A stretch of DNA of 64,000 nucleotides from Arthrobacter sp. V1I7. Its GTDB lineage: Bacteria; Actinomycetota; Actinomycetes; Actinomycetales; Micrococcaceae. Position 1 is the first letter of the stretch. Each line of letters opens with the position of its first letter. Positions 188-60,973 of this stretch are shown piece after piece. The stretch lies in assembly GCF_030817015.1 (NCBI RefSeq), contig NZ_JAUSYS010000001.1, positions 1 to 64,000 on the forward strand. The letters are read 5' to 3'. The notes below the pieces were generated by a model. That model did no database searches, was not told the DNA's origin, and worked only from the letters and a program-made list of their open reading frames with translations. Position numbers and translations under genes: made by a program.

Positions 188-5393
<5,206 letters not shown>

Positions 5394-21612: not shown

Positions 21613-22743
21613 TCAGCTCACTCGCGGCCTGGATGCCGAGAAGATGGCCGGCGCGCGGCCCTCGCCGGTCGCGAGGTCGGCAAGGATGCGCCCCACCACG
21701 GGCGTGAACTTGAACCCGTGGCCGGAGAAGCCGGCGCCGATCACGAGGGGGCCGATGCGGTCCAGCACGAAATTCTCATCCACCGTGGTCGTGTACGTGC
21801 AGCTGATGTCGGTGAGGGAGTCCGGGTCGACGCCCGGCAGCCAGCGGCGGGCGTAGTCCTGCAGGGCCGCCCGCTGCTGAAGCTCCGGCGCGAAGGACCT
21901 CCGGTCCGGGTCCACCACCGGCCCGACCCCGTGCCAGCCCGCCTTGATCCCCTCGCCGGGGGTCGGCATGCCGTAGACCGGCGAGTACCAACCTGCGAAT
22001 TCCTCGCCGTGGCCGGGGGAATGGTTGAATCCGGGCCAGACGGCCCCGTCGTCCGCGACGGCGAAGTGCACAGGCTGTTCCTGGGTCACGGTCAGCCGGG
22101 GTAGTCCCGGTACGCCGGCGAGCAGCTTCGAGGTCCACCCTCCGGCGGTGACGATGGCCCGCCGGGCGGCAAGTGCTTCGGTGCGGCCGTCCACTTCGAC
22201 CGTTAGCCGGACGCCGTCGTCGAGGATTTCCAGCTCCACGACCCTTGACCGGTGGCGTATGACGGCCCCGTTTCCGGCGGCGAGCCGCTGCAGGACCGGC
22301 AGGGCGACGTCGGGGTTCAGCTGCCCGCCGTCGGGCATGTGCAGCACCTGCCGGTCGAACCGGATGCCCCGCCAGCGCTCGACCGCTTCCGCCGCGGCCA
22401 GGAATTCAGCCCGTAGCCCGGCCGCAAGCAAGGCGGCCCGCACGTCGCCGAGCCGGGGATCGGTGCCATGGTTCACAACACCGGTGCGGGCGAGGAGCCG
22501 CTCCCCGCCGTCGGTTTCAAGCTCGTTCCAGAGCGCCACGCTCTCCGCCAGCATGGCTACATAGCGGGGTTCGGAGTACGCCGGATTGAGGTTCCGCGTG
22601 GCGCCGTGGGATGCGCCGTTGCGGTGCCCGGGCCCGAACTGTTCCAGCAGGGTCACGTCGCGGCCGCGCCGGGCCAGCGCCCACGCGGCGGCGGAGCCCA
22701 TGGCCCCGCCTCCGATGACAACGGTGTCCAGGGTTGTTCTCAA
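21613..22743 (-). CDS. solA: N-methyl-L-tryptophan oxidase-like FAD amine oxidase
   Basis: FAD-dependent oxidase of 376 aa in the monomeric sarcosine oxidase/N-methyltryptophan oxidase family. The Rossmann motif is VVIGGGAMGSAAAW (residues 8-21). The sequence near residue 315 (SCTYTTTVDENFVLDRI) contains the cysteine that covalently holds FAD in the family. The C-terminal GAGFSGHGFKFTPVVGRIL is also a family hallmark. It oxidatively demethylates an N-methyl amino acid; the exact substrate cannot be told. It lies downstream of, and on the same strand as, the AEC transporter gene with a 66-nt gap, so the two may be expressed together. Confidence 0.88.
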   Translation of the reverse strand: MRTTLDTVVIGGGAMGSAAAWALARRGRDVTLLEQFGPGHRNGASHGATRNLNPAYSEPRYVAMLAESVALWNELETDGGERLLARTGVVNHGTDPRLGDVRAALLAAGLRAEFLAAAEAVERWRGIRFDRQVLHMPDGGQLNPDVALPVLQRLAAGNGAVIRHRSRVVELEILDDGVRLTVEVDGRTEALAARRAIVTAGGWTSKLLAGVPGLPRLTVTQEQPVHFAVADDGAVWPGFNHSPGHGEEFAGWYSPVYGMPTPGEGIKAGWHGVGPVVDPDRRSFAPELQQRAALQDYARRWLPGVDPDSLTDISCTYTTTVDENFVLDRIGPLVIGAGFSGHGFKFTPVVGRILADLATGEGRAPAIFSASRPRVS

Positions 22744-22809
22744 TGGTCCTCCAGAGGGTGCAGGGTGCGGGGTCGGGATGGAGCTGGCGGCCGTGCCGGC
22801 CGGCCGGTG

Positions 22810-23736
22810 TCACGCCAGGAGCAGGGCCACCCCGATCATGGCCGGCACGGCCACGACAGTCGTGATCAGCACGGTGTCCTTCGCGACCGTGATACCGGTC
22901 CGGTAGCGGCTGGCGGCGACAAAGACGTTCTGTGCCGTGGGCAGGGCGGATGTGACAACGGCGGCGAAGAGCGCCTGGCTGTCCAGGCCGAGTGCGAAGC
23001 GGGCAAACAAGTACGCCAGCAGGGGATGGACGATGAGTTTGAAACCACTGGCCAGGAGGGCGTCGAGGCGCCGACCTCCCGCGGCCTGCAGCGGCCGGGA
23101 GCCGTTGAGGCTCATGCCGAAGGCAAGCAGCATGGCCGGAATGGCGGCCCCGCCGATCAGATGGATCGGTTCCATCACCAGCGCCGGCACCTGCCACCCG
23201 GTCCCCGCCACGAGCAGGCCCAGGCCGGAACCCACGATCATGGGATTGCGCAGGATCATCAGCACGAATCCGAGCGCGGTGGTCCGGTGTGCGCTGGTGG
23301 TGGCGTCCAGGGCGATAAGGAAGATCGGGGTCAAGAACGCCAGCTGGAAAATCAGCAGCGGCGCCACGTAGCTGGCACTGCCGAGCACGTACACCGCGAT
23401 GGGAATGCCCAGATTGGCGGAATTGGCCAGGGACGCGCTCATCGACGAAATCAGCGACTCCGGCAGGGGCCGCTTGAGCAGGAACCGCACGATCCCGAAG
23501 TAGATTCCCGCCGTCGCGACGGCACCCACCGCCGCCACCAGCAGCGGCGCGGCGAAGACGTCCTGGAGTTTTGCCTTACTGAGCGTTTCGAACAACAGTG
23601 CGGGGCTGGCGACGAAGAAGGTCAGCGCACTGAGCACGGAGCGGGCGTTCTCGCCGAGGATCCCGCGCCGGCCCACGAACATGCCCACCAGGATGATGCA
23701 CCAGACCACGAAGAAGCCGGCAAGCACCCCTAGCAC
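22810..23736 (-). CDS. AEC family transporter
   Basis: Protein of 308 aa with about ten hydrophobic segments in the auxin efflux carrier (AEC) pattern: an N-terminal half (MLGVLAGFFVVWCIILVGMF, then LTFFVASPALLF) and a similar C-terminal half (ALVMEPIHLIGGAAIPAMLLAFGMSL, ALPTAQNVFVAASRY). Members carry organic acids or amino-acid-like compounds. The gene precedes the SolA-type oxidase on the same strand, so a transport/oxidation pair is plausible, but the substrate is unassigned. Confidence 0.87.
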   Translation of the reverse strand: MLGVLAGFFVVWCIILVGMFVGRRGILGENARSVLSALTFFVASPALLFETLSKAKLQDVFAAPLLVAAVGAVATAGIYFGIVRFLLKRPLPESLISSMSASLANSANLGIPIAVYVLGSASYVAPLLIFQLAFLTPIFLIALDATTSAHRTTALGFVLMILRNPMIVGSGLGLLVAGTGWQVPALVMEPIHLIGGAAIPAMLLAFGMSLNGSRPLQAAGGRRLDALLASGFKLIVHPLLAYLFARFALGLDSQALFAAVVTSALPTAQNVFVAASRYRTGITVAKDTVLITTVVAVPAMIGVALLLA

Positions 23737-23855
23737 GCGGTGGTCCGGCGCGTCGGAGCCTGGGGATGGGTGGTGGTCACCTTCCCAGAGTAATCAGCTT
23801 TATTTACCCGGGGCGCCTGTTACGGCGAAAGCCAGTCGGTCTGCCCGGGGCGACA

Positions 23856-24287
23856 TCAGTTCAGGTTGGCGTTGTTCAGCGCGTACGGCGGCCGCATCAG
23901 CCCCGGCGTGTGGCCGTCCTCCGCAGGATCGTTGCCGATCTGCACAATTTTGTTGTCTTTATCCACATGGACGACGCGCGGGGTATAGGCCTTGGCCTCT
24001 TCCGTGGTCATCTCGGCGTAGGTGATGAGGATGACGACGTCGTTCTCGTGCATGAGGTGCGCGGCCGCACCGTTGATTCCGATCACGCCGGAACCGCGCT
24101 CGCCGGCGATCGTGTAGGTCTCCAACCGCGCGCCGTTGGTGACGTCGACAATTGCCACGAGCTCGCCGGGGAGGATGTCGGCCGCCTCCAGCAGATCCAG
24201 GTCCACGGTGACGGAACCGACGTAGTGGAGGTCGGCATGCGTGACCGTGGCGCGGTGGATCTTGGACTTGAATATTGTGCGATTCAT
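23856..24287 (-). CDS. panD: Aspartate 1-decarboxylase
   Basis: PanD, 143 aa, decarboxylates L-aspartate to beta-alanine for pantothenate and coenzyme A synthesis. It is a pyruvoyl enzyme that cleaves itself between G24 and S25, visible here as YVGSVTVD. The opening [20 protein letters not shown], the [17 protein letters not shown] block and the YAEM stretch are all family marks, and the length is usual. It is not next to panB or panC here. Confidence 0.95.
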
Positions 24288-24345
24288 AACGGAACCAGTC
24301 TAGCGCCGGCGGGTTCTTCGCGCTGTGAGCCAAAACACCGGCAGC

Positions 24346-25269
24346 TCAGCCCGGCGCCGACACGGTTGCGGGGGAGATGGAGGCGGCAGTCTCGGCCAGG
24401 ATTTCCCGCGTTGCCAGAATGGCGGGCCGTTTGGCACTCGAGCGACGCACCGAGGTGAAGACCGTCCGGTGCGGATCGCCGGGCAGGCGGATCAGCTGGG
24501 CCGTGGTTCCCCGCCCTGTCCAGACCAGATCAGGCATCAGGGCTACCGCATTGCCTGATTCGATCAGCCGGATCTGTGCCTGCAGGTCCGCCGTTTCGAA
24601 GCGGACGTCGGGTTCGAAGCCCGCGCTGCGGCACGCCTGTTCGGCCCAGTGGCGCGACGCCGCTCCCCGCGGCTCCATGACCCACGCCAGTCCGGCGGTG
24701 TCGCCGAGGGAGGTGATGGCCGGCCGGTCGGGCGACGGCGGCGGAACGGCGAGCCTGATCGCATCGCCCGTCAGCCGGATGCGGTCCAGTTCCTCGTACC
24801 GGGGCGCCGCGTGGCCGGGATACTGCTCGGCTATGACCAAGTCGAAGTCCCGCGCCCAGGTCTCATGGAGGGCGGTTTCTGGTTCGCGCTGCGTCATCTC
24901 GATCCGGACCTCCGGGTAGCTGGATGACATCCGGGTCAGTGCGTCGGGCATGAGGGCCAGGGCCGCCGACTGGAAGACGGCGATCCGCACGGTGCCGGTC
25001 ACTGTGGTGAGGGACGCAGCCAGGTCCGCCTCAGCCTGCTCCAATGTCTCCAGCAATTGGGCCGTGTGCGCCACCAGCACTTCGGCCTGCGGAGTGAGCT
25101 GGACGCGGCGGCCGGTCTTCCGCAGAAGCTCAACCCCCGCCTCCTTTTCCAGCAGCGCCAGTTGCTGCGAGACCGACGACGGGCTGTACTGGAGCGCCCC
25201 GGCGACCTCTGCCAGCGTGCCGCGGATTTTCAGCTCGCGCAACAGGCGCAAACGTCGGACGTCGAGCAT
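24346..25269 (-). CDS. LysR-type regulator, divergent from APC permease
   Basis: Transcription factor of 307 aa. The N-terminal winged helix (residues about 2-60: VRRLRLLRELKIRGTLAEVA, then YSPSSVSQQLALLEKEAG) and the following linker helix are typical LysR. The effector domain begins near residue 90 (VTGTVRIAVFQSAA). It faces away from the permease gene across a 140-bp spacer with a strong dyad (25281-25314). A matching dyad lies upstream of putA, so this protein is the obvious candidate to control both. The effector is not known; proline is inferred from putA. Confidence 0.9.
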   Translation of the reverse strand: MLDVRRLRLLRELKIRGTLAEVAGALQYSPSSVSQQLALLEKEAGVELLRKTGRRVQLTPQAEVLVAHTAQLLETLEQAEADLAASLTTVTGTVRIAVFQSAALALMPDALTRMSSSYPEVRIEMTQREPETALHETWARDFDLVIAEQYPGHAAPRYEELDRIRLTGDAIRLAVPPPSPDRPAITSLGDTAGLAWVMEPRGAASRHWAEQACRSAGFEPDVRFETADLQAQIRLIESGNAVALMPDLVWTGRGTTAQLIRLPGDPHRTVFTSVRRSSAKRPAILATREILAETAASISPATVSAPG

Positions 25270-25280
25270 CGTGGTCCTTT

Positions 25281-25345
25281 GTGAATTCTAATGGTTATTG
25301 ATTAGGAGAATTCACTTTATCTAATGCAATTGGGCTTGCATACTG
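25281..25345 (+). promoter_or_regulatory. Dyad operator and promoter block for the APC permease
   Basis: Arms GTGAATTCT and its exact complement AGAATTCAC lie at 25281-25289 and 25306-25314, with inner AAT/ATT pairs. A 31-nt block follows directly at 25315-25345 (from CTTTATCT to GCATACTG). The same layout occurs upstream of putA at 27124-27186, with 24 of 31 positions identical in the second block. It is likely the binding site of the divergent LysR protein plus the promoter. Confidence 0.6.
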
Positions 25346-25409
25346 TTGTCTTGAGTAACCCCCATCACAGGGTGGATTGATGGGCAACAGAGCTGAGCAG
25401 GAGACCCTG

Positions 25410-26873
25410 ATGAGTGCACCAGATTTGACCAAGTCAGTCATGCGGAAGAAACCAATTGATGACATCGAGGTGGAAAACAAACACAGCGGACTGTTCAAGA
25501 GCCTTGGCCTCTGGCAGCTGACGGCGATCGGCGTCGGCGGCATTATCGGGGTCGGCATCTTCTCCCTCGCAGGCCTCGTGGCCCACGGCAGCGAAACGGA
25601 ACCCGGCGTCGGTCCCGCGGTGCTGTTTTCCTTTCTGATTGCAGGACTGGCGTCCGCGGCGGCCGCTTTGTCCTATGCGGAATTTGCCGGCATGATCCCG
25701 CGTGCGGGGTCGGCCTACACCTACGGATACGTGGCCCTCGGCGAAGTCATTGGCTGGTTCATCGGCTGGGACCTGCTGCTGGAATACATTGCCATCGTTG
25801 CCGTGGTGGCGATCGGCATATCCGGCTACTTCGGCGCGTTCCTCTCCGGCATCGGGATCGACATGCCCCTCTGGATGGCCTCGACGGCGGACGAGGGCCG
25901 GGGCGGCATCGTCAACATTCCGGCCATTGTCGTCTGCCTGATCGTGACCTGGATCCTCTCCCGGGGCACCAAGACCTTCGGCCGCTTCGAGCTGGTGGCC
26001 GTGGCCATCAAGGTCGTCCTGATCCTGTTCATCATCGGCCTCGGGATTTTCTACATCAACGCCGACAACTACAACCCGTTCATGCCCAGCGGAATCGGCC
26101 CGGTCTTCGCGGGCGCCGCCACGGTGTTTTTCGCGGTGTTCGGCTATGACGCCATGAGCACGGCAGCCGAGGAAGCGACCGACGGCAAAAAGCACATGCC
26201 CAAGGCCATCCTCCTCTCCCTGGTCATCGCCATGCTCCTGTACGTGGCCGCCACCCTGGTGCTCACCGGCATGCAGAACTACCGGGACATCGACCCCACG
26301 GCCGGGTTCGCCTCCGCCTTCACCGGCGTGGGCCTGCCCGTCATCGCCACGATCATCTCCGTGTTCGCGGTGCTCTCCATCCTCACCGTGATGCTGACCT
26401 TCCTCCTCGGCGTAACCCGCGTCTGGTTCTCTATGAGCCGCGACGGCCTGCTCCCGGGTTGGTTCTCCAAGACGGACCGTCACGGTACGCCGCAGCGGGT
26501 CACCTGGATCGCCGGCATCGCCTCCGCGCTGCTGGCCGGCGTGTTCCCGATCAAGGCCGTGGCCGACCTGACCAACATCGGCATCCTGGCCGCATTCGTG
26601 GTCGTCTGTTTGGCGGTGATCGTCTTCCGATACAAGAAGCCCGATGCCCCGCGCACCTTCCGCCTGCCCTTGATGCCGCTGGTGCCTGCCTTCGGCGTCC
26701 TGTCCTCGGCGTTCCTGATGTTCCAGCTGCACTGGGAGACCTGGGCCCGCTTCGGCGTCTGGCTCGCGATCGGTCTGGCAATCTACTTCGGGTACGGCCG
26801 CAGGCACTCCCTGATGAACCCGGACAGCCCGCGGCACGAAGAGGCCGTGGAGATGCACCGCCCCGTCGGCTAG
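25410..26873 (+). CDS. APC family amino acid permease
   Basis: Cytoplasmic-membrane transporter of 487 aa with about twelve hydrophobic segments, of the cationic/neutral amino acid APC group. The first helix carries the substrate-binding GVGGIIGVGIFSLAG loop, and helix 6 the FGYDAMSTAAEEATDGKK motif, both family marks. ATG at 25410 has AGGAG 7 nt upstream and matches the usual N terminus; an in-frame ATG at 25377 lacks a site. The shared regulatory block with putA suggests it feeds amino acid, perhaps proline, to that enzyme. It is followed by a repeat-rich spacer rather than a simple terminator. Confidence 0.88.
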   Translation: MSAPDLTKSVMRKKPIDDIEVENKHSGLFKSLGLWQLTAIGVGGIIGVGIFSLAGLVAHGSETEPGVGPAVLFSFLIAGLASAAAALSYAEFAGMIPRAGSAYTYGYVALGEVIGWFIGWDLLLEYIAIVAVVAIGISGYFGAFLSGIGIDMPLWMASTADEGRGGIVNIPAIVVCLIVTWILSRGTKTFGRFELVAVAIKVVLILFIIGLGIFYINADNYNPFMPSGIGPVFAGAATVFFAVFGYDAMSTAAEEATDGKKHMPKAILLSLVIAMLLYVAATLVLTGMQNYRDIDPTAGFASAFTGVGLPVIATIISVFAVLSILTVMLTFLLGVTRVWFSMSRDGLLPGWFSKTDRHGTPQRVTWIAGIASALLAGVFPIKAVADLTNIGILAAFVVVCLAVIVFRYKKPDAPRTFRLPLMPLVPAFGVLSSAFLMFQLHWETWARFGVWLAIGLAIYFGYGRRHSLMNPDSPRHEEAVEMHRPVG

Positions 26874-27110
26874 CTGGCGCGACGCTCCCTCACGTTCCGC
26901 GCCATTCGACCCGACGCTCCCTCACGTTCCGCGCCATTCGACGCGACGCTCCCTCTGCTTCAGGGCTTTGCTGACGAACCCTCCCTCACATCAGGTGAGG
27001 GAGGGTTCGTCGTTGTGGGGCAGGAGGTGAGGGAGGGTTCGTCGTTGTGGGGCAGGAGGTGAGGGAGGATCCGCAGTTTTGGGGCTGAAAGTGAGGGAGG
27101 ATCGGAGGGG
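26874..27110. repeat. Tandem GAGGGAG/CTCCCTC intergenic repeats
   Basis: The left part holds two close copies and a partial third of a unit containing GACGCTCCCTCACGTTCCGC (about 26880-26965). The right part holds about three copies of a unit containing GTGAGGGAGG, two with TTCGTCGTTGTGGGGCAGGA (about 26994-27105). A palindrome sits between them (CCCTCCCTCAC...GTGAGGGAGGG, 26980-27007), which could fold into a strong hairpin and help stop transcription. No gene is seen. Confidence 0.8.
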
Positions 27111-27123
27111 GATTAACCTTCGA

Positions 27124-27186
27124 CTTTTCTAACCTGTATTGCTCAGAAAACATCGCTTTATCTTATGAAAATCCGGTCGCATACTG
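27124..27186 (+). promoter_or_regulatory. putA operator and promoter block matching the permease site
   Basis: A dyad TTTTCT...AGAAAA (27125-27150) is followed by a 31-nt block at 27156-27186 (from CTTTATCT to GCATACTG) that matches the permease block at 24 of 31 positions. Inside the dyads both sites keep TTCTAA and TATTG at the same spacing. This suggests the same regulator, most likely the LysR protein at 24346-25269. Confidence 0.6.
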
Positions 27187-27230
27187 ATTCTAAGAACGGT
27201 CCATATTTCGAGAAAGAACGAGAAGCCGCC

Positions 27231-30200
27231 ATGACGAACATCTCAACGGAGTCCCGCGCGAACACCGGCAACACCGCCGGGCACGCCGCCGTTTCGGCAG
27301 GCTCCACGGTGCCGGAGGCCGCCGCCCTCGCGGAGGACACCATCGCGCTGGTCCGCCACTGGCTCACCGAAGCCGCCCAGGTCCCCGTTGATGCGTCGGC
27401 CGAGCAGCTCGCGGGGGTCCTGAAGGACCCCAATGGCCTCGACTTCACCGTCGGGTTCGTCGACGGCGTCGTCCGCCCCGAAGACCTGCAGGTCGCCGCC
27501 CGCAACCTGGCTGCCCTGGCCCCCAAGGTCCCGGCCTTCCTGCCCTGGTACATGCGCAGCGCCGTCCGCCTCGGCGGCACCATGGCCCCGGTCCTGCCGC
27601 AGGTGGTCATCCCGATCGCACGCCGTGTGCTCCGCGAGATGGTCGGCCACCTGATCGTCGACGCCACGGACGCCAGGCTGGGCCCTGCGATCGCCAAGAT
27701 CCGCAAGGACGGCATCAAGCTGAACGTCAACCTCCTCGGCGAGGCGGTCCTCGGCGAACACGAGGCCTCCCGCCGGCTCGAGGGCACGCACACGCTGCTG
27801 TCCCGCCCCGACGTCGACTATGTCTCCATCAAGGTCTCCTCCACGGTCGCCCCGCACTCCGCCTGGGCCTTCGACGAGGCAGTCGAGCACGTCGTCGAGA
27901 AGCTCACCCCGCTCTTCACCCGCGCCGCCTCCTACGCGGCCCTCGGGCAGAGGACCAAGTTCATCAACCTGGACATGGAGGAATACAAGGATCTGGACAT
28001 GACCATCGCGGTCTTCACCAGGATCCTGGACAAGCCGGAATTCAAGAACCTCGAGGCCGGTATCGTGCTGCAGGCCTACCTTCCGGACGCCCTCGCCGCC
28101 ATGATCCACCTGCAGGACTGGGCCGCCGCCCGCCGCGCCCACGGCGGCGCCGCGATCAAGGTCCGCGTCGTCAAGGGCGCCAACCTGCCGATGGAGCAGG
28201 TCGAAGCCTCCCTGCATGACTGGCCGCTCGCCACCTGGGGCACCAAGCAGGATTCGGACACCAACTACAAGCGCGTTCTCAACTACTCGCTGCACCCGGA
28301 CCGGATCGGCAACATCCGGATCGGCGTCGCCGGCCACAACCTCTTCGACATCGCCTTCGCCTGGCTGCTGGCCAAGCAGCGCGGCGTGGAATCCGGCATC
28401 GAGTTCGAGATGCTGCTCGGTATGGCCCAGGGCCAGGCCGAAGCCGTCAAGAAGGACGTCGGCTCGCTGCTGCTCTACACCCCGGTGGTCCACCCGGCCG
28501 AGTTCGACGTCGCGATCGCCTACCTGATCCGCCGGCTCGAGGAGGGCGCCAGCCAGGACAACTTCATGTCCGCGGTCTTCGAACTCGGGGGGAACTCCCC
28601 AGAAAGCAGAGCCCTGTTCGAGCGCGAGACGCAGCGCTTCCTCGCCTCCCTCGCCAAGCTCGACGACGCGGTGCCGGCGCCCAACCGCCGGCAGGACCGC
28701 AGCCTCCCGGCCGCGCCGATGCCGCACGACTCCTTCGAGAACACCCCGGACACCGACCCCTCGCTGCCGGCCAACCGCAGCTGGGGCCGTGCCATCCTGG
28801 AACGCGTCCCGGGCTCCACGCTGGGCAACGCCGCCGTCGAGGCAGCCACCATCAACGACGAGGAAACCCTCAACTCGGTGATCGAAACCGCTGTGGAAAA
28901 GGGCAAGGCCTGGGGCTCCCTCTCCGGCGCCGAGCGCGCCGAGATCCTGCACCGCGCCGGCGATGTGCTCGAATCCCGCCGCGCGGAGCTGCTCGAGGTC
29001 ATGGCCAGCGAGACCGGCAAGACCATCGACCAGGGCGATCCCGAAGTCAGCGAAGCGGTTGACTTCGCGCACTACTACGCCGAGTCCGCCCGCAGGCTCG
29101 ACGATGTCGACGGCGCAACATTTGTTCCCGCGAAGCTCACGGTCGTGACCCCGCCGTGGAACTTCCCGGTGGCCATCCCGGCCGGCTCCACCCTCGCGGC
29201 GCTTGCCGCCGGGTCCGCCGTCGTGATCAAGCCGGCCAAGCAGGCCCGCCGGAGCGGCGCCGTGATGATCGAGGCTCTCTGGGAGGCCGGCGTGCCCCGC
29301 GAGGTGCTCACCATGGTCCAGCTGGGCGAGCGTGAGCTTGGCCGGCAGCTGATTTCGCACCCCGCGGTGGACCGCGTCATCCTCACCGGCGGCTACGAGA
29401 CGGCCGAGCTGTTCCGGTCCTTCCGCCAGGATCTTCCCCTCCTGGCCGAGACCAGCGGCAAGAACGCCATCATCGTCACTCCCAGCGCCGACCTGGACCT
29501 CGCGGCCAAGGACGTTGCGTACTCCGCGTTCGGCCATGCCGGCCAGAAGTGCTCCGCCGCCTCGCTCGTGATCCTGGTCGGCTCCGTGGCCAAATCCAAG
29601 CGTTTCCATAACCAGCTGATCGACGCCGTCACCTCGCTGAAGGTCGGCTACCCCGAAGATCCGGCCAGCCAGATGGGCCCGATCATCGAACCCGCGAACG
29701 GCAAGCTCCTCAACGCGCTCACCACGCTTGGTGAAGGCGAAAGCTGGGCCGTCGAACCGAAGAAGCTGGATGAAACCGGCAGGCTCTGGAGCCCCGGCGT
29801 CCGCTTTGGCGTGCGGCGCGGATCCTACTTCCACCTCACCGAATTCTTCGGCCCGGTGCTCGGCGTTATGACCGCGGAGACCCTGGAAGATGCGATCGCC
29901 TTCCAGAACCAGATCGACTATGGGCTCACCTCCGGCCTTCACTCGCTCAACGCGGAGGAGCTGGGTATGTGGCTGGACAACGTCCAGGCCGGCAACCTGT
30001 ACGTCAACCGCGGCATCACCGGTGCCATCGTGCAGCGCCAGCCCTTCGGCGGCTGGAAGAAATCAGCAGTCGGCGCTGGCACCAAGGCCGGCGGGCCGAA
30101 CTACCTCGTCGGCCTCGGTGACTGGACCAGCAAAGCCAGCTCCGCCGTCGCTGTCCCGGCGCACTCCGGCGTCCGCCGGATCGAGAACGCCTCCAAGGGC

Positions 30201-30761
30201 TTCCTGCCCGCCGACGAGCTGCAGCTACTGCAGCGCGCGCTTGCCTCTGACGCCGTGGCCTGGGCCGAGGAGTTCGGCACCTCCAAGGACGTCTCCGGGC
30301 TGACCGCCGAACGCAACATCTTCCGGTACCGGGCGCTGCCCGTGACGGTGCGCCTCTCCGAAGGGGAACCGCTCGTTCACCTGGTCAGGACTGTGGCTGC
30401 CGGCGTGCAGGCGGGCTCCACGCTGACGGTGTCCACCGCCGTCGAACTTCCCGTCCCGCTGCGCACTGTCCTGTCCGGTCTCGGCATCGCCGTCACCGTG
30501 GAGAACGACGCCGGGTGGCTGGGCTCCGCGGCCAAGCTCGCCGACGCGGCCAGGCTCTCCACCTCACGGATCCGGCTCATCGGCGGGGACCCCAAGGCCC
30601 TGGCCGAGGCGACCGGCGGGCGCCCGGACCTGTCGGTCTACTTCCACCCGGTCACCGAGGCCGGCCGCGTTGAGTTGCTGCCGTTCCTGCACGAACAGGC
30701 CATCAGCATCACGGCGCACCGCTTTGGCACCCCGAACCACATCTCGGACAGCCTGCTCTAG
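27231..30761 (+). CDS. putA: Bifunctional proline dehydrogenase / P5C dehydrogenase
   Basis: PutA of 1,176 aa oxidises proline to glutamate in two steps. The N-terminal PRODH barrel (residues about 90-450) shows YVSIKVSS, NLDMEEYKDLDM, RVVKGANLPME and IGVAGHNLFDIAFA for FAD and proline binding. The aldehyde dehydrogenase half (about 540-1000) has TPPWNFPVAIPAG, the LAETSGKNA Glu and the catalytic Cys in GHAGQKCSAAS (about residue 767). A C-terminal extension of about 170 residues follows. There is no N-terminal ribbon-helix-helix DNA-binding domain, so it cannot repress itself as E. coli PutA does, consistent with an outside regulator. ATG 27231 follows a purine-rich AGAAAGAACGAGAAG. Confidence 0.95.
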   Translation: MTNISTESRANTGNTAGHAAVSAGSTVPEAAALAEDTIALVRHWLTEAAQVPVDASAEQLAGVLKDPNGLDFTVGFVDGVVRPEDLQVAARNLAALAPKVPAFLPWYMRSAVRLGGTMAPVLPQVVIPIARRVLREMVGHLIVDATDARLGPAIAKIRKDGIKLNVNLLGEAVLGEHEASRRLEGTHTLLSRPDVDYVSIKVSSTVAPHSAWAFDEAVEHVVEKLTPLFTRAASYAALGQRTKFINLDMEEYKDLDMTIAVFTRILDKPEFKNLEAGIVLQAYLPDALAAMIHLQDWAAARRAHGGAAIKVRVVKGANLPMEQVEASLHDWPLATWGTKQDSDTNYKRVLNYSLHPDRIGNIRIGVAGHNLFDIAFAWLLAKQRGVESGIEFEMLLGMAQGQAEAVKKDVGSLLLYTPVVHPAEFDVAIAYLIRRLEEGASQDNFMSAVFELGGNSPESRALFERETQRFLASLAKLDDAVPAPNRRQDRSLPAAPMPHDSFENTPDTDPSLPANRSWGRAILERVPGSTLGNAAVEAATINDEETLNSVIETAVEKGKAWGSLSGAERAEILHRAGDVLESRRAELLEVMASETGKTIDQGDPEVSEAVDFAHYYAESARRLDDVDGATFVPAKLTVVTPPWNFPVAIPAGSTLAALAAGSAVVIKPAKQARRSGAVMIEALWEAGVPREVLTMVQLGERELGRQLISHPAVDRVILTGGYETAELFRSFRQDLPLLAETSGKNAIIVTPSADLDLAAKDVAYSAFGHAGQKCSAASLVILVGSVAKSKRFHNQLIDAVTSLKVGYPEDPASQMGPIIEPANGKLLNALTTLGEGESWAVEPKKLDETGRLWSPGVRFGVRRGSYFHLTEFFGPVLGVMTAETLEDAIAFQNQIDYGLTSGLHSLNAEELGMWLDNVQAGNLYVNRGITGAIVQRQPFGGWKKSAVGAGTKAGGPNYLVGLGDWTSKASSAVAVPAHSGVRRIENASKGFLPADELQLLQRALASDAVAWAEEFGTSKDVSGLTAERNIFRYRALPVTVRLSEGEPLVHLVRTVAAGVQAGSTLTVSTAVELPVPLRTVLSGLGIAVTVENDAGWLGSAAKLADAARLSTSRIRLIGGDPKALAEATGGRPDLSVYFHPVTEAGRVELLPFLHEQAISITAHRFGTPNHISDSLL

Positions 30762-34040: not shown

Positions 34041-34178
34041 GTGGGGACCGGCCAGAATCCAGCCATGGTCCCGAACAACGAGATTCACATTACCTCAGTC
34101 TTCGACTATCTCGGAACCACGATGCCGGCGGGCTCCGCGCGGCCCGGACATCGGCATTCATCGCAGTCGGACGGGCGA

Positions 34179-34673
34179 GTTCTAGCGATCGTTGCAACAC
34201 CCCCACGTAATCGGGAGTTGCAACACCCATGGGGTCACCGTCAGGAAATAGTTCTTCCAAAAAGAAAAAAATTCGCCGTCAGCGGAGAAATCGGCGCCCC
34301 TTGCCGGTGCGGGCGGCCAGCGTCATCAGCAGTCCTATTCCCGTGCTCAAGGCAGGATTTCTTTTCCGCCGTTGCGCGCCTGGGGACGGTCGCGGCGGCG
34401 GCCAGGGAGCTCGACATCAATAGGAGCACCTGCCAGAAGTGGGCGAACGCTGCCGGGATCAGGAGTCAACGCCAGTACACCCAGGCCGACAAGGACCGGT
34501 TCTATGCCGTCCTAGATCGGACCGGAAATATCGTGGCCGCTGCCAGGGAACTGGGGCTGAACATCAGCACCGCGAACACCTGGGCCGGCCGGGTCAATCC
34601 AGCGGCCGGGAAGCCACGGACCACCGGAACCGTGAAAGCCGGGCCGGCACAACGCCACCCCTCCGCGGTGGTT
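34179..34673 (+). pseudogene. IS30 family left-end remnant
   Basis: The left inverted repeat (GTTCTAGCGATCGTTGCAAC) and the start of an IS30-type transposase. An ATG at 34229 opens MGSPSGNSSSKKKK. A frameshift then leads into the HTH repeats (INRSTCQKWANAAGIR, then a similar ARELGLNIS block) in another frame. The copy at 58825 is clearly related but diverged. This copy is cut off at 34673 by the end of the IS3 element, and its remaining transposase is missing. Confidence 0.75.
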
Positions 34674-34741
34674 TGAGCTGCCGCGGAGATCTCGGACAGT
34701 GGGCCCCTTAAAATGAGGGTCTACCGAAAGTAGAGATCAGC

Positions 34742-34954
34742 ATGACCGCATCACGCAAGCGATTTACCCAGGAGTTCAAGGACGAGCTGTGCCGCGAGGT
34801 GATCAGCACGTCCAAGCCGATCAAGGACGTGGCCCCCGCATACGGTGTCGGCCCCGAGACGCTCCGCAACTGGCTGGTCAAGTACCGCGAGGCCAACGGC
34901 GGCACGGAAGCGGATCTGACGGTGTCGGAACGGGCCCGGCTGAAGGAGCTTTAG
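34742..34954 (+). pseudogene. IS3 transposase orfA, early stop
   Basis: HTH protein of IS3 elements, 70 aa as read. The sequence KRFTQEFKDELCREVI and VAPAYGVGPETLRNWLVKYRE is the standard OrfA helix-turn-helix. The normal leucine zipper would continue (ERARLKELEREVQELRAETAFL), but a GAG codon has become TAG at 34952, and the zipper is readable only past that stop. Confidence 0.8.
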
Positions 34955-35029
34955 CGTGAAGTTCAAGAACTGCGGGCGGAGACTGCCTTCTTGAAAAGCC
35001 AGCGCTTACTTCGCGCGGGAGCAGCGGTA

Positions 35030-35933
35030 GTGAGCAAGTATGAATTCATCGATTCCCAAAAGGCTGAGCCCGCCAATCTGAATTCGGTGGTGAGAATGTG
35101 CCGCTGGCTGGCCGTCTTGACGTCCGGTTTCTATCACTGGGCCACACGTGCGCAGTCGGCCACGCCGGCCCGCCGCCAGGCCCTGACAGCGCGGATCCGG
35201 CACTACTTCGAGGAGTCCGAGGGCACCTACGGGTACCGGCGCATCCGCGCCGATCTCGCCGCGGAACAGACCGAGTGCTCTCCCGAGTTGGTGCGGCAGA
35301 TCATGCGCTACCAGGGCCTGGTGCCTGTCAACCACGCCCGATCCGCATCACCACCGAGGCTGACGCTGAGGCAGCCGCGGGCATGCCCGACCTCGTCAAG
35401 CGGGACTTCACCGCCGACCGCCCCGGGGTGAAGTTCGTCGGCACATCACCTACATCCATACCTGGCAAGGGTTCGTCTACCTCGCCACCGTCATCGACAG
35501 CTACTCGAAGAATGTCGTGGGCTGGTCCATCGCCGATCACATGCGCACCGAGCTCGTGGCCGATGCGCTCAAGAACGCCGCCGCTACGACCCGGATCGAG
35601 CCTCTCGCGATCTGGCACTCCGATCGGGGAAGCGTCTACACCTCGACAGATTTCAGGGCCCTGGTGACCGGGCTGGGCATGCGCTCGTCGATGGGGCGCA
35701 CCGGCGTGTGTTGGGACAACAGCATGGCCGAATCGTTCTTCTCAGCGCCGAAAAACGAGCGTGTGTATCGGACCGTTTACGCGACTAAATCACAGGCTCG
35801 GAGCGACGTCATTCGCTACATCGAGGGTTTTTACAACAGCCGCGCCGTCACTCCGCGCTCGGTTACCGGCGGCCTAACGAAGTCCACTATGGTTATCAAC
35901 AGCCAGCCTTGGCAGCGTAGAAGAATCCACTAA
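35030..35933 (+). pseudogene. IS3 transposase orfB, frameshifted
   Basis: The rve-type DDE integrase of IS3, starting GTG 35030 (MSKYEFI). Pieces in successive frames are YGYRRIRADL, then VGWSIADHMRTELVADAL with IWHSDRGSVYTS (second Asp region) and MAESFFSAPKNE (Glu). At least three shifts are visible, near 35325, 35445 and after 35860. It cannot make a full transposase. Confidence 0.8.
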
Positions 35934-35964
35934 TTCTGCTGTCCGAAATCCCCGCGGCAGCTCA

Positions 35965-37317
35965 GGGGTGTTGATGCCGGCTGAGGCGCCGGTCTGATGT
36001 TGGGGAAGGTTCCGGGCATGCAGGAAGCCCCCGTTCGCGGCGAAGTCGAAGAAAGGCAGCTTGCCCAGGCCGGTGTTTTTCAGGGTCTTGATCCGGTTCT
36101 CGCACCTGCCGCGTGCCGGTGTCTGGCGTCAAGGAACGGGCCGTGCCAGCTGGGTGAGTTGGTCAGGAACGCGGTGATGCGGTGTCCGTCGATGTCCAGC
36201 AGCGTCGGTTGCGCGCCGGGGTGCAGGGGCTCGGCGCGCAGGTAAAGGTTCGTTCCCGGCGGGTAGTCGGTGAGCGGGATGATGTCGGTGGCGTTGATGA
36301 CCCAGGCATCGGTCCGGTCGTTGCCGGCCTGGTCCAGGGCCGGCTGCCAGTTCTTCTTGTCGTTGATCCAGTCGACCATGTGGGCTTTGGCCGCGGGGAC
36401 GGGGTAGGAGACGGAGAACTGGGCGTTCCGGCTGTGCAGGTACCAGAGGAACTTCCTTGAGGCTCCGGCGCTGTCGGTGCGGACCAGGACGTTCTCTCCG
36501 GCCAGCGCCCCGGTCTCGTCGAAGAATCCTTCGGGCAGGCCGGACACGGCGGTCTCGAAGACGCGGATGTGGTCATCGGCGCTGTTCGCGCCGGCGTTGC
36601 CGGGCCGCAGCAGGCAGGCGAGGATTTCCCCGGTGCCGTTACCGGCACCGTAATCGCAGGACGCGATGAAGGGGGCGAAGCCGTAGCCACCTTTGTAGGT
36701 GCCGGCGACGTTTTCCTTCTCCGAGTGTGAGGCCACGAGGGTGGCGTCCAGGTCCAGGATGAGCGGATCCGCCGCTGTCGCGGACAATGCCGGGTTCCGG
36801 TTCCCGGCCGCTTCCCGGGCCGTGGAGCGCAGTTGCCGGGTGAGGGTTTCGATGCCATAGCCGAACAGCTCGGGGTTCGTCACGGTCCGTTCGAAAAACC
36901 GGGACACCGTCGCGTTCGAGGGCAGCTGGCCGAAGACCCCCGGTGAGACCCGCAGGATGTCCAGATCGGACACGTGTTCACCTCCGGCGGCCAGCATCGC
37001 CGCCAGAGAACCGACCAGCCGGCCGGGCCGGTGCGTCGCGCCTGCGGGAACGAACTGGCCCAACCGGTCCTCGCACAGTGCCCCGAAACCCAGGGCATCC
37101 ATGAAACCGGTCAGGACCTTCACCCCGGCGTGGGAGACCAGCGACTGGCCGGTGAAAGTGACCGGAACGGACGGAAAAACACGGGTAGACTTTTGCATCG
37201 AAAGGGTGCTCCTTCACTCGGCAAATAACGGTCTCGACAACCACTATTTTCCCAGTTCAGAGCACCCTTTCCCTGCTTAAACACACCCTCTCAGCGACCC
37301 GCCATGAAACCCCCGGG
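35965..37317 (-). mobile_element. IS1380 family element A, partly deleted
   Basis: A copy of the same IS1380-type element found at 59255-60973, in the same orientation. The right terminus (ending CCCCCGGG near 37317) is present, but about 270 bases of the left transposase-coding end have been deleted near 36000-36060 relative to the other copy. Confidence 0.8.
36080..37198 (-). pseudogene. IS1380 transposase, C-terminus lost
   Basis: The N-terminal 340 residues match the other copy closely: ALGFGALCEDRLGQFV, then LILDLDATLVASHSEKENV (catalytic Asp) and LVRTDSAGASRKF (second Asp). After FLDARHRH the frame leaves homology and stops, so the C-terminal domain with the catalytic Glu region is missing. 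It starts ATG 37198. Unlike copy B it keeps the 23 bp deleted there near YPPGTNLYLRAEPLHPG. Confidence 0.85.
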
Positions 37318-58757: not shown

Positions 58758-59254
58758 CTCGTCCCGGTGTTAGCGGCCATGAAAAACTGCCCATAGGCGG
58801 CCACGGAACTGCCCACTGAGGCGGGTTCTAGCGATCGTTGCAACACCCCCGAATAATCGGGAGTTGCAACACCCATGGAATCACCATCAAGGATTGGTTC
58901 TTCCTTAAAGAAAAAATCTGCTTCAGCGGAGAAATCCGTGCCTTTGGCTGGGGGCACCGTGAAGCGTCTGCAGCAGTCCCATACCGGTGCCCAACGACAA
59001 GATTTCCTGGCAGCGGTGGCGCGTCTGGGAACTGTCGCCGCGGCGGCCAAGGAACTCGGCATCAACAGGAGTACCTGCCAGAAGTGGGCGAACGCTGCCG
59101 GGATCAGGCGCAAGCGCCAGTACACCCAGGCCGAGAAGGAACAGTTCCATGCCGCCCTTGATCGAACCGGGAGAATCGTGGCGGCAGCCAGGGAACTGGG
59201 GCTGAATATCGGCACCGCGCATAACTGCGCTGGCAGGATCAATTCAGCAGCTAG

Positions 59255-60973
59255 CCCGGATTTTGCATCGGTCGTCGGTCGGGGGTGTTGATGGCGGCTG
59301 AGCGGCTGGCGTGTTGTCTGGGCGGATTCCGGGCACCCTCGACCGTCCCATGCGCCGGGGTTGGCGCGGGTTTCCACGTACCCGTGATGGCTGTCTGTCT
59401 GCTCGCAGTGATGGGGCTGGTTCCGGGCGTCAGGTCTGCATGATGGCGGTGGGGTTCTTGAGGCTCGCCGCGATGCTTGCGGTGGCTTCGAGTAATCTGT
59501 GGATCAGTTGGTGTTCGGGTGCCGTTCCGGGCAGGAGGAGATAGCTCTTTCTGGCGCGGGTGATGATCTTGCCTGCAGTGGCGAAGAGCCGGTAGCGCCA
59601 GCGTTTGATGTCCCATCCCTTGGCGTGGTCGCCGGCGGGGAGCGCGGTGAGCTGGAGCCAGGAGACGAGGTTGGAGGCCAGGGCTGCGATCCACGCCCAG
59701 GCCTGGTTCGCGGCGAAGTCGAAGAACGGCAGCTTGCCCAGACCGGTGTTTTTCAGGGTCTTGATCCGGTTTTCGCACCGGGCCCGGGCCCGGGCGCGGT
59801 GTCTGGCGTCAAGGAACGGGCCGTGCCAGCGCGGTGAGTTGGTCAGGAACGCGGTGATCCGGTGCCCGTCGATGTCCAGCAGCGTCGGTTGCGCGCCGGA
59901 ACAGGTTCGTTCCCGGCGGGTAGTCGGTGAGCGGGATGATGTCGGTGGCGTTGATGACCCAGGCATCGGTCCGGTCGTTGCCGGCCTGGTCCAGGGCCGG
60001 CTGCCAGTTCTTCTTGTCGTTGATCCAATCGACCATGTGGGCTTTGGCCGCGGGGACGGGGTAGGAGACGGAGAACTGGGCGTTCCGGCTGTGCAGGTAC
60101 CAGAGGAACTTCCTTGAGGCTCCGGCGCTGTCGGTGCGGACCAGGACGTTCTCTCCGGCCAGCGCCCCGGTCTCGTCGAAGAATCCTTCGGGCAGGCCGG
60201 ACACGGCGGTCTCGAAGACGCGGATGTGGTCATCGGCGCTGTTCGCGCCGGCGTTGCCGGGCCGCAGCAGGCAGGCGAGGATTTCCCCGGTGCCGTTACC
60301 GGCACCGTAGTCACAGGACGCGATGAAGGGGGCGAAGCCGTAGCCGCCCTTGTAGGTGCCGGCGACGTTTTCCTTCTCCGAGTGTGAGGCCACGAGGGTG
60401 GCGTCCAGGTCCAGGATGAGCGGATCCGCCGCTGTCGCCGACAACGCCGGGTTCCGGTTCCCGGCCGCTTCCCGGGCCGTGGAGCGCAGTTGCCGGGTGA
60501 GGGTTTCGATGCCATAGTCGAACAGCTCGGGGTTCGTCACGGTCCGTTCGAAAAACCGGGACACCGTCGCGTTCGAGGGCAGCTGGCCGAAGACCCCCGG
60601 TGAGACCCGCAGGATGTCCAGATCGGACACGTGTTCACCTCCGGCGGCCAGCATCGCCGCCAGAGAACCGACCAGCCGGCCGGGCCGGTGCGTCGCGCCT
60701 GCGGGAACGAACTGGCCCAACCGGTCCTCGCACAGTGCCCCGAAACCCAGGGCATCCATGAAACCGGTCAGGACCTTCACCCCGCGGTGGGAGACCAGCG
60801 ACTGGCCGGTGAAAGTGACCGGAACCGACGGAAAAACACAGGTAGACTTTTGCATCGAAAGGGTGCTCCTTCACTCGGCAAATAACGGTCTCGACAACCA
60901 CTATTTTCCCAGCTCAGAGCACCCTTCCCTGCTTAAACACACACCCTCAGCCACCCGCCATGAAATCCCCGGG
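59255..60973 (-). mobile_element. IS1380 family element B, with CTAG target duplication
   Basis: 1,719 bp from CCCGG (59255) to CCGGG (60973). The 4-bp CTAG flanks both sides (59251-59254, 60974-60977), and the empty site can be rebuilt from the IS30 reading frame. It is a copy of the element at 35965-37317. Confidence 0.93.
59430..60855 (-). pseudogene. IS1380 transposase with 23-bp deletion
   Basis: Starts ATG 60855 (MQKSTCVFPSVPVTF). Motifs LILDLDATLVASHSEKENV and LVRTDSAGASRKF are intact. Near 59897-59900 copy B lacks 23 bp present in copy A, which shifts the frame after YPPGTNL; the C-terminal part continues in another frame (FLTNSPRWHGPFLDARHR, then GLGKLPFFDFAANQAWAWIA) to 59430. Together the two copies hold all parts, but neither alone does. 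Confidence 0.88.

Follow-up and report, generated by a model that had tools for sequence, protein, structure and literature searches.

The window, a stretch of 64,000 nt, belongs to the 5.03 Mb genome of an Arthrobacter-group host. Among the 80 named loci compared with it, the nearest come from Arthrobacter and Pseudarthrobacter, with up to 98% identity in the LysR protein. It carries a lysR gene divergent to a permease gene, which is followed by putA, and the spacers before the permease gene and before putA hold similar sites, referred to here as site A and site B, respectively:

24346-25269, minus strand: lysR, proposed regulator of putA and the permease gene (Pfam HTH_1 and LysR_substrate); divergent to putA or the permease gene in 48/48 family loci opened
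25288-25305, no strand: dyad CTAATGGTTATTGATTAG in site A, where LysR is proposed mainly to bind; CTAA-N10-TTAG exact in 69/77 named relatives
25312-25324, plus strand: TCACTTTATCTAA box of site A, overlapping the proposed -35; mean pairwise identity 0.98 over 76 distinct named sequences
25316-25344, plus strand: proposed permease promoter, TTTATC (25316-25321), 17 nt, CATACT (25339-25344); CATACT at this distance in 75/77
25410-26873, plus strand: APC-family amino acid permease, proposed proline importer (AA_permease_2 185 bits, AA_permease 154 bits; 5oqt, E=2.8e-120)
27129-27146, no strand: dyad CTAACCTGTATTGCTCAG of site B, before putA; CTAA-N10-T[TC][AG]G in 67/72 and CTAA-N10-TTAG in 28/72 named relatives
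27153-27165, plus strand: TCGCTTTATCTTA box of site B, overlapping the proposed -35; mean pairwise identity 0.99 over 72 distinct sequences
27157-27185, plus strand: proposed putA promoter, TTTATC (27157-27162), 17 nt, CATACT (27180-27185); CATACT at this distance in 72/72
27231-30761, plus strand: putA, bifunctional proline dehydrogenase / glutamate-semialdehyde dehydrogenase (Pfam Pro_dh and Aldedh; 5ux5, E=2e-278)

The lysR product consists of an N-terminal HTH_1 domain (46.6 bits) and a C-terminal LysR_substrate domain (100.7 bits), both above the Pfam cut-offs. Its best solved relative in a structure-database comparison is distant (E=5e-9), and among the best 25 of the 47 NCBIfam models that match it, none reaches its cut-off. 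The putA product carries both catalytic domains, Pro_dh (201 bits) and Aldedh (324 bits), and its closest solved protein, 5ux5, is named Proline utilization A and aligns over residues 33-1051. The NCBIfam PutA models stay below their cut-offs on this protein. Pfam finds Pro_dh and Aldedh alone and no DNA-binding domain, so it does not qualify as a trifunctional, self-regulating PutA. Proline serves as a carbon source for a relative, A. arilaitensis, which possesses a bifunctional PutA (PMC2991359). The listed putA frame opens at ATG 27165, upstream of the proposed -10 hexamer; for this reason we took ATG 27231 as the start, which the sequence suggests is more likely the true one. The permease falls within the APC family by its Pfam domains, AA_permease_2 and AA_permease, and 5oqt is its closest solved relative. 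Downstream of lysR lie panD, a gene for an auxin-efflux-type carrier and a sarcosine/N-methyltryptophan-oxidase-like gene (21613-24287); they are kept beside lysR in many named relatives, and no tie between these three genes and proline was found.

The initial annotation had singled out a 31-nt block shared by the two spacers, and our comparison bears this out: the blocks before the permease gene (25315-25345) and before putA (27156-27186) are identical at 24 of 31 positions. The motif TTCTAA(N4)TATTG likewise recurs at the same spacing, as had been proposed (starts at 25286 and 27127). The distance from dyad to block, described as nearly equal, is indeed similar, but the wording was too cautious, since it amounts to 29 nt in both spacers and is thus exactly equal. 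Over the 60 nt from TTCTAA to CATACTG, the spacers match without gaps at 42 positions (42/60). Their best ungapped segment scores 24, and 2000 dinucleotide shuffles never exceeded 15; when stretches of the window were paired at random as a second control, 1 of 1822 such pairs reached the score of the spacer pair. This single pair is probably due to long direct duplications in the window (34174-36533 and 58820-60190), which extend up to 300 nt at 99% identity, lie about 23.7-24.6 kb apart from start to start and are perhaps two copies of a mobile element. Scans of the host genome with up to three mismatches returned sites A and B alone and no third place. Between the permease gene and site B lie two arrays of 32-bp tandem repeats (26880-26955, 2.4 copies; 26993-27100, 3.4 copies), and GTGAGGGAGGGT-like repeats are visible by eye in the same permease-putA spacer of many relatives.

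The 80 named loci provided 77 permease spacers and 72 putA spacers. Permease spacers are missing for L029 and L072, which gave partial matches, and for L088, which has no permease there; putA spacers are missing for L014 and L072 (partial matches), for L030, L044, L060, L062 and L069 (the locus taken contains no match to putA), and again for L088. In these relatives the conserved unit consists of CTAA-N10-TYAG, followed by TCRCTTTATCTWA and then CATACT. All 77 permease spacers and all 72 putA spacers contain CTTTATCT, and a distance of 33 nt from CTAA to the second CTWA is kept in 71/77 and 69/72 of them, respectively. Mean pairwise identity reaches 0.95-1.00 in the half-sites, the box and the -10, with the exception of the second half-site before putA (0.76); it is 0.59-0.84 between the elements and 0.46-0.54 in the flanks. 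Comparing both spacers in related genomes, the check suggested at the outset, thus shows that the site has been kept throughout, whereas its flanks have diverged.

A longer dyad with 9-bp arms, GTGAATTCT (25281-25289) and AGAATTCAC (25307-25315), was also considered as the core element. The arms are exact in the permease spacer, as the initial annotation stated, but they are exact in just 12 of 77 relatives; we therefore rejected this dyad in favour of the inner CTAA-N10-TTAG, which is conserved instead. Likewise, the two blocks might represent a recent copy of one promoter with no meaning for control, as their location within 2 kb of each other in the window could suggest. Because they are conserved between diverged flanks in the 77 and 72 named relatives, and because far-off permease genes also have the site (described below), we rejected a recent meaningless duplication, to which we assign almost no probability.

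TTTATC and CATACT, 17 nt apart in both spacers, are proposed to serve as weak -35 and -10 hexamers. A promoter consensus scanner called no promoter at either of the two proposed positions, and this silence would suit activator-dependent promoters. No RNA element in 24200-27400 matched Rfam at the gathering score. The arrangement of dyad, box and hexamers also bears on the sign of control, which cannot be read from sequence. LysR could act on both genes as a repressor relieved by proline rather than as an activator, and a dyad and a box placed over or beside the -35 would accommodate such a role. In LysR-type activation, the usual layout is an upstream dyad together with a box on a poor -35. 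This is also the layout of the two spacers, where the hexamers are weak and escape the scanner; repression is therefore an unlikely mode of control in our view, and activation by LysR is preferred.

The site accompanies the permease gene and putA through several gene arrangements. Where relatives have a LysR about 78% identical to that of the window, lysR and putA are immediate neighbours transcribed away from each other, with a site of the same kind in the spacer that separates them; of the eight divergent lysR-putA spacers, two (L113 and L114) lack the site by anchor search. In five such genomes, the permease orthologue (88-90% identical) is remote from lysR, yet it carries the site. Three further remote permease genes with the site (86-88% identical) were found by the pattern alone, bringing the number of genomes with remote, site-bearing permease orthologues to eight. 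In the first five of these genomes, the remote permease gene comes after an apparent tRNA-Gly gene, as judged by eye. A permease paralogue (about 42% identical), used as a control and taken from six loci including one in the host genome itself, has no site there (best match 12-13 mismatches), against 0-3 mismatches in six loci of the permease orthologue. Finally, the divergent neighbour of lysR in two other genera is a permease-putA pair, whose genes are separated by a few dozen nucleotides and which has a single site. The four layouts are therefore lysR divergent to putA; lysR divergent to permease and putA with one site; the permease gene in between with two sites, as in the window; and the permease gene elsewhere with its own site. 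Because the site accompanies both genes in each of them, the two stay under one kind of operator. Site A shows a mean identity of 37.0/57 to the far-off permease sites and 34.8/57 to the divergent lysR-putA sites, and the corresponding values for site B are 38.3/57 and 38.2/57; these means favour no particular order of copying among the sites.

A blind scan of 158 family genomes with a 56-nt pattern, allowing up to three mismatches, returned 46 places, distributed over 35 genomes from 10 genera, and the reversed pattern returned none. All 46 could be placed, and 43 of them lie directly before a putA or permease orthologue, so that the site is nearly confined to these genes. Within the window's own genus, each of the nine genomes of the scanned set (9/9) has two sites. 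Two of the places, with three mismatches each, occur in related genomes (L166 2034-2089 and L167 2012-2067) and have no lysR, putA or permease homologue within 4.6 kb around them. One more site precedes a GABA-permease-like gene in genome G200 (TIGR01773, 622.2 bits with a cut-off of 678.1), a possible third member of the regulon; the gene and its operator occupy 3288-4718 and 4818-4873 of locus L176, and a gamma-glutamyltransferase-like frame, recognised by eye, is found further on (1247-3073). The permease site of G200 is closest to the lysR-putA site of its own genome (47/57), and the next best of 219 sites reaches 42, as expected if regulator and operator change together.

The occurrence of the site follows that of the LysR protein. 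LysR matches at E<=1e-70 are present in 98 of the 158 family genomes; all genomes with the site have LysR (35/35), and no genome without LysR has the site (0/60; Fisher 3e-9, relatedness not corrected). The remaining 63 of the 98 LysR genomes have no site within three mismatches. We opened 25 such loci beyond the reach of the scan, and the best match before lysR shows 4-6 mismatches in 14 of them and 7-13 in the other 11. This match beats all 200 shuffles in 21/25 loci, and in four (L206, L219, L221 and L223) it is no better than some of the 200. In LysR genomes out of the scan's reach, the site thus appears mostly to fade rather than to vanish.

The placement of lysR is equally persistent. 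Of the 48 family loci opened, 43 have putA and 5 have the permease gene as the divergent neighbour of lysR, and putA is divergent to lysR in all 20 of 20 family loci chosen as more distant. In the order, 70 of 198 genomes matched LysR, and 30 of these together with G037 (L115) gave loci. Of these loci, 25 were checked, and 23 of the 25 belong to genomes that reach E=1e-60: putA is divergent to the LysR homologue in 20/25 loci, or 20/23 from the genomes reaching this threshold. It is absent beside the homologue in the other five (L115, L116, L117, L234 and L247), of which L116 and L117 contain LysR homologues of 35-36% identity that fall short of E=1e-60. The site itself is mostly not recognisable in these 25 loci outside the family.

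These observations have to be weighed against the idea that the block is the promoter or operator of another, unlinked regulator, such as a global nitrogen or carbon regulator, and that LysR controls something else. LysR binding to the block is a prediction, the protein reaches the cut-off of no named regulator among the best 25 of 47 NCBIfam models, and nearly two thirds of the LysR genomes (63/98) are without a close site, all of which would be compatible with an outside regulator. Such a regulator would leave unaccounted for the divergent position of lysR with the site region in between in every family locus opened, the confinement of the site to LysR genomes, and the fact that genomes of the window's genus have just two sites each; we consider its involvement improbable. 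Control of both genes by the one LysR, as the initial annotation had proposed, is instead favoured by the persistence of the site at remote permease genes, the wide occurrence of the lysR-putA divergence and the co-occurrence of site and regulator.

The sequence of the dyad offers a view of how LysR might recognise it. In 108 distinct dyads, the pairs 2-17 (P=0.005), 3-16 (P<0.0002) and 5-14 (P=0.009) are complementary more often than in shuffles; these values are not corrected for relatedness, and the distant dyads in the set had been selected because they resemble the pattern. No significance is reached at pair 1-18, pair 4-15 is nearly invariant, and 6-13, 7-12 and 8-11 lack any such excess. 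This covariation fits a symmetric protein sitting on the outer half-sites. LysR-type proteins canonically bind the motif T-N11-A. The dyad CTAA-N10-TTAG has even symmetry and does not readily accommodate the canonical motif, a point against LysR as the protein bound there; by eye, a T-N11-A can be found within TCRCTTTATCTWA, but without a dyad.

We interpret LysR (24346-25269) as a pathway regulator that activates proline uptake and breakdown together, and on the sequence evidence we put the probability of this reading at roughly 0.78. A LysR tetramer would sit on the CTAA-N10-TYAG dyad, whose centre is some 20 nt upstream of the -35 hexamer, and would also contact the TCRCTTTATCTWA box, which overlaps the weak -35 in the permease promoter and in the putA promoter. 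The co-inducer may be proline or its product P5C, in whose presence both genes would be switched on together. At site A, LysR might also limit its own expression, a proposal made because the dyad lies 19-36 nt upstream of the lysR start.

We infer that the permease carries proline from its co-regulation with PutA, from the single-site permease-putA pair in two genera and from the PutP search: TIGR02121 gives four matches in the host genome, the best at 107.5 bits against a cut-off of 515.5, so no PutP is present at the cut-off. The permease itself scores 45.5 bits with the ProY model (cut-off 736). Co-regulation could be correct and the permease could still transport wider or other amino acids, whose breakdown would meet PutA only partly. 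The top NCBIfam model, the branched-chain transporter BcaP, points in this direction with 505.8 bits, below its 690-bit cut-off, and APC carriers often have a broad substrate range. On the other hand, the permease gene has the operator of putA wherever it is located, in addition to the pairing with putA and the lack of a PutP above the cut-off. A wider or different substrate range is accordingly possible but the less likely case, and proline remains our preferred substrate.

In kind, the system is ordinary, as LysR proteins with neighbouring catabolic genes are familiar; the assignment of a LysR-type regulator to proline genes seems to be new. Our searches of an open library brought up no publication in which a LysR-type protein is named as regulating putA, and the putA regulators described in the surveyed papers are PutA itself, the Lrp-type PutR and the AraC-type PruR. 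A LysR-type putA regulator would, if true, show that this control problem has been solved independently once more. We think it fairly probable that the protein represents an undescribed LysR-type master regulator of proline use across much of the actinobacterial order, with one uptake-plus-breakdown regulon in four layouts and with operator and regulator co-changing. The regulon suggests that proline enters through an APC-family importer in this genome, in which no PutP can be recognised. Its small size, its sharp definition and its survival when genes are rearranged also make it well suited to studies of joint change in a regulator and its operator. The system is of moderate interest because it is assigned to proline, because it outlasts rearrangements and because it seems to have no described precedent.

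The closest mechanistic parallels are the LysR-type catabolic regulators BenM, CatM and CbbR, which are among the solved relatives and share both domains with the window LysR. Their genes are divergent to the target, and they act through an upstream dyad and a box at the -35, the same logic that we propose here. The window LysR differs from them in its distance (the E=5e-9 of its best solved relative), in its proline-gene targets and in the even symmetry of its dyad. PruR of Pseudomonas aeruginosa, an AraC/XylS-family protein, reportedly regulates putA; like the window LysR it is a regulator separate from PutA, but the two belong to different protein families. In Caulobacter and Agrobacterium, a divergent regulator adjoining putA, PutR, activates putA with proline (PMC6168545). 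This arrangement resembles that of the window, whereas the protein is of the unrelated Lrp/AsnC family rather than of the HTH_1 and LysR_substrate type. In the E. coli putA-putP system, PutA itself acts as the repressor, and proline is carried by PutP (PMC8249747). There, too, one regulator serves both proline uptake and breakdown; in the window, by contrast, PutA comprises Pro_dh and Aldedh only, the carrier belongs to the APC family rather than being a PutP, and the role of common regulator would fall to LysR.
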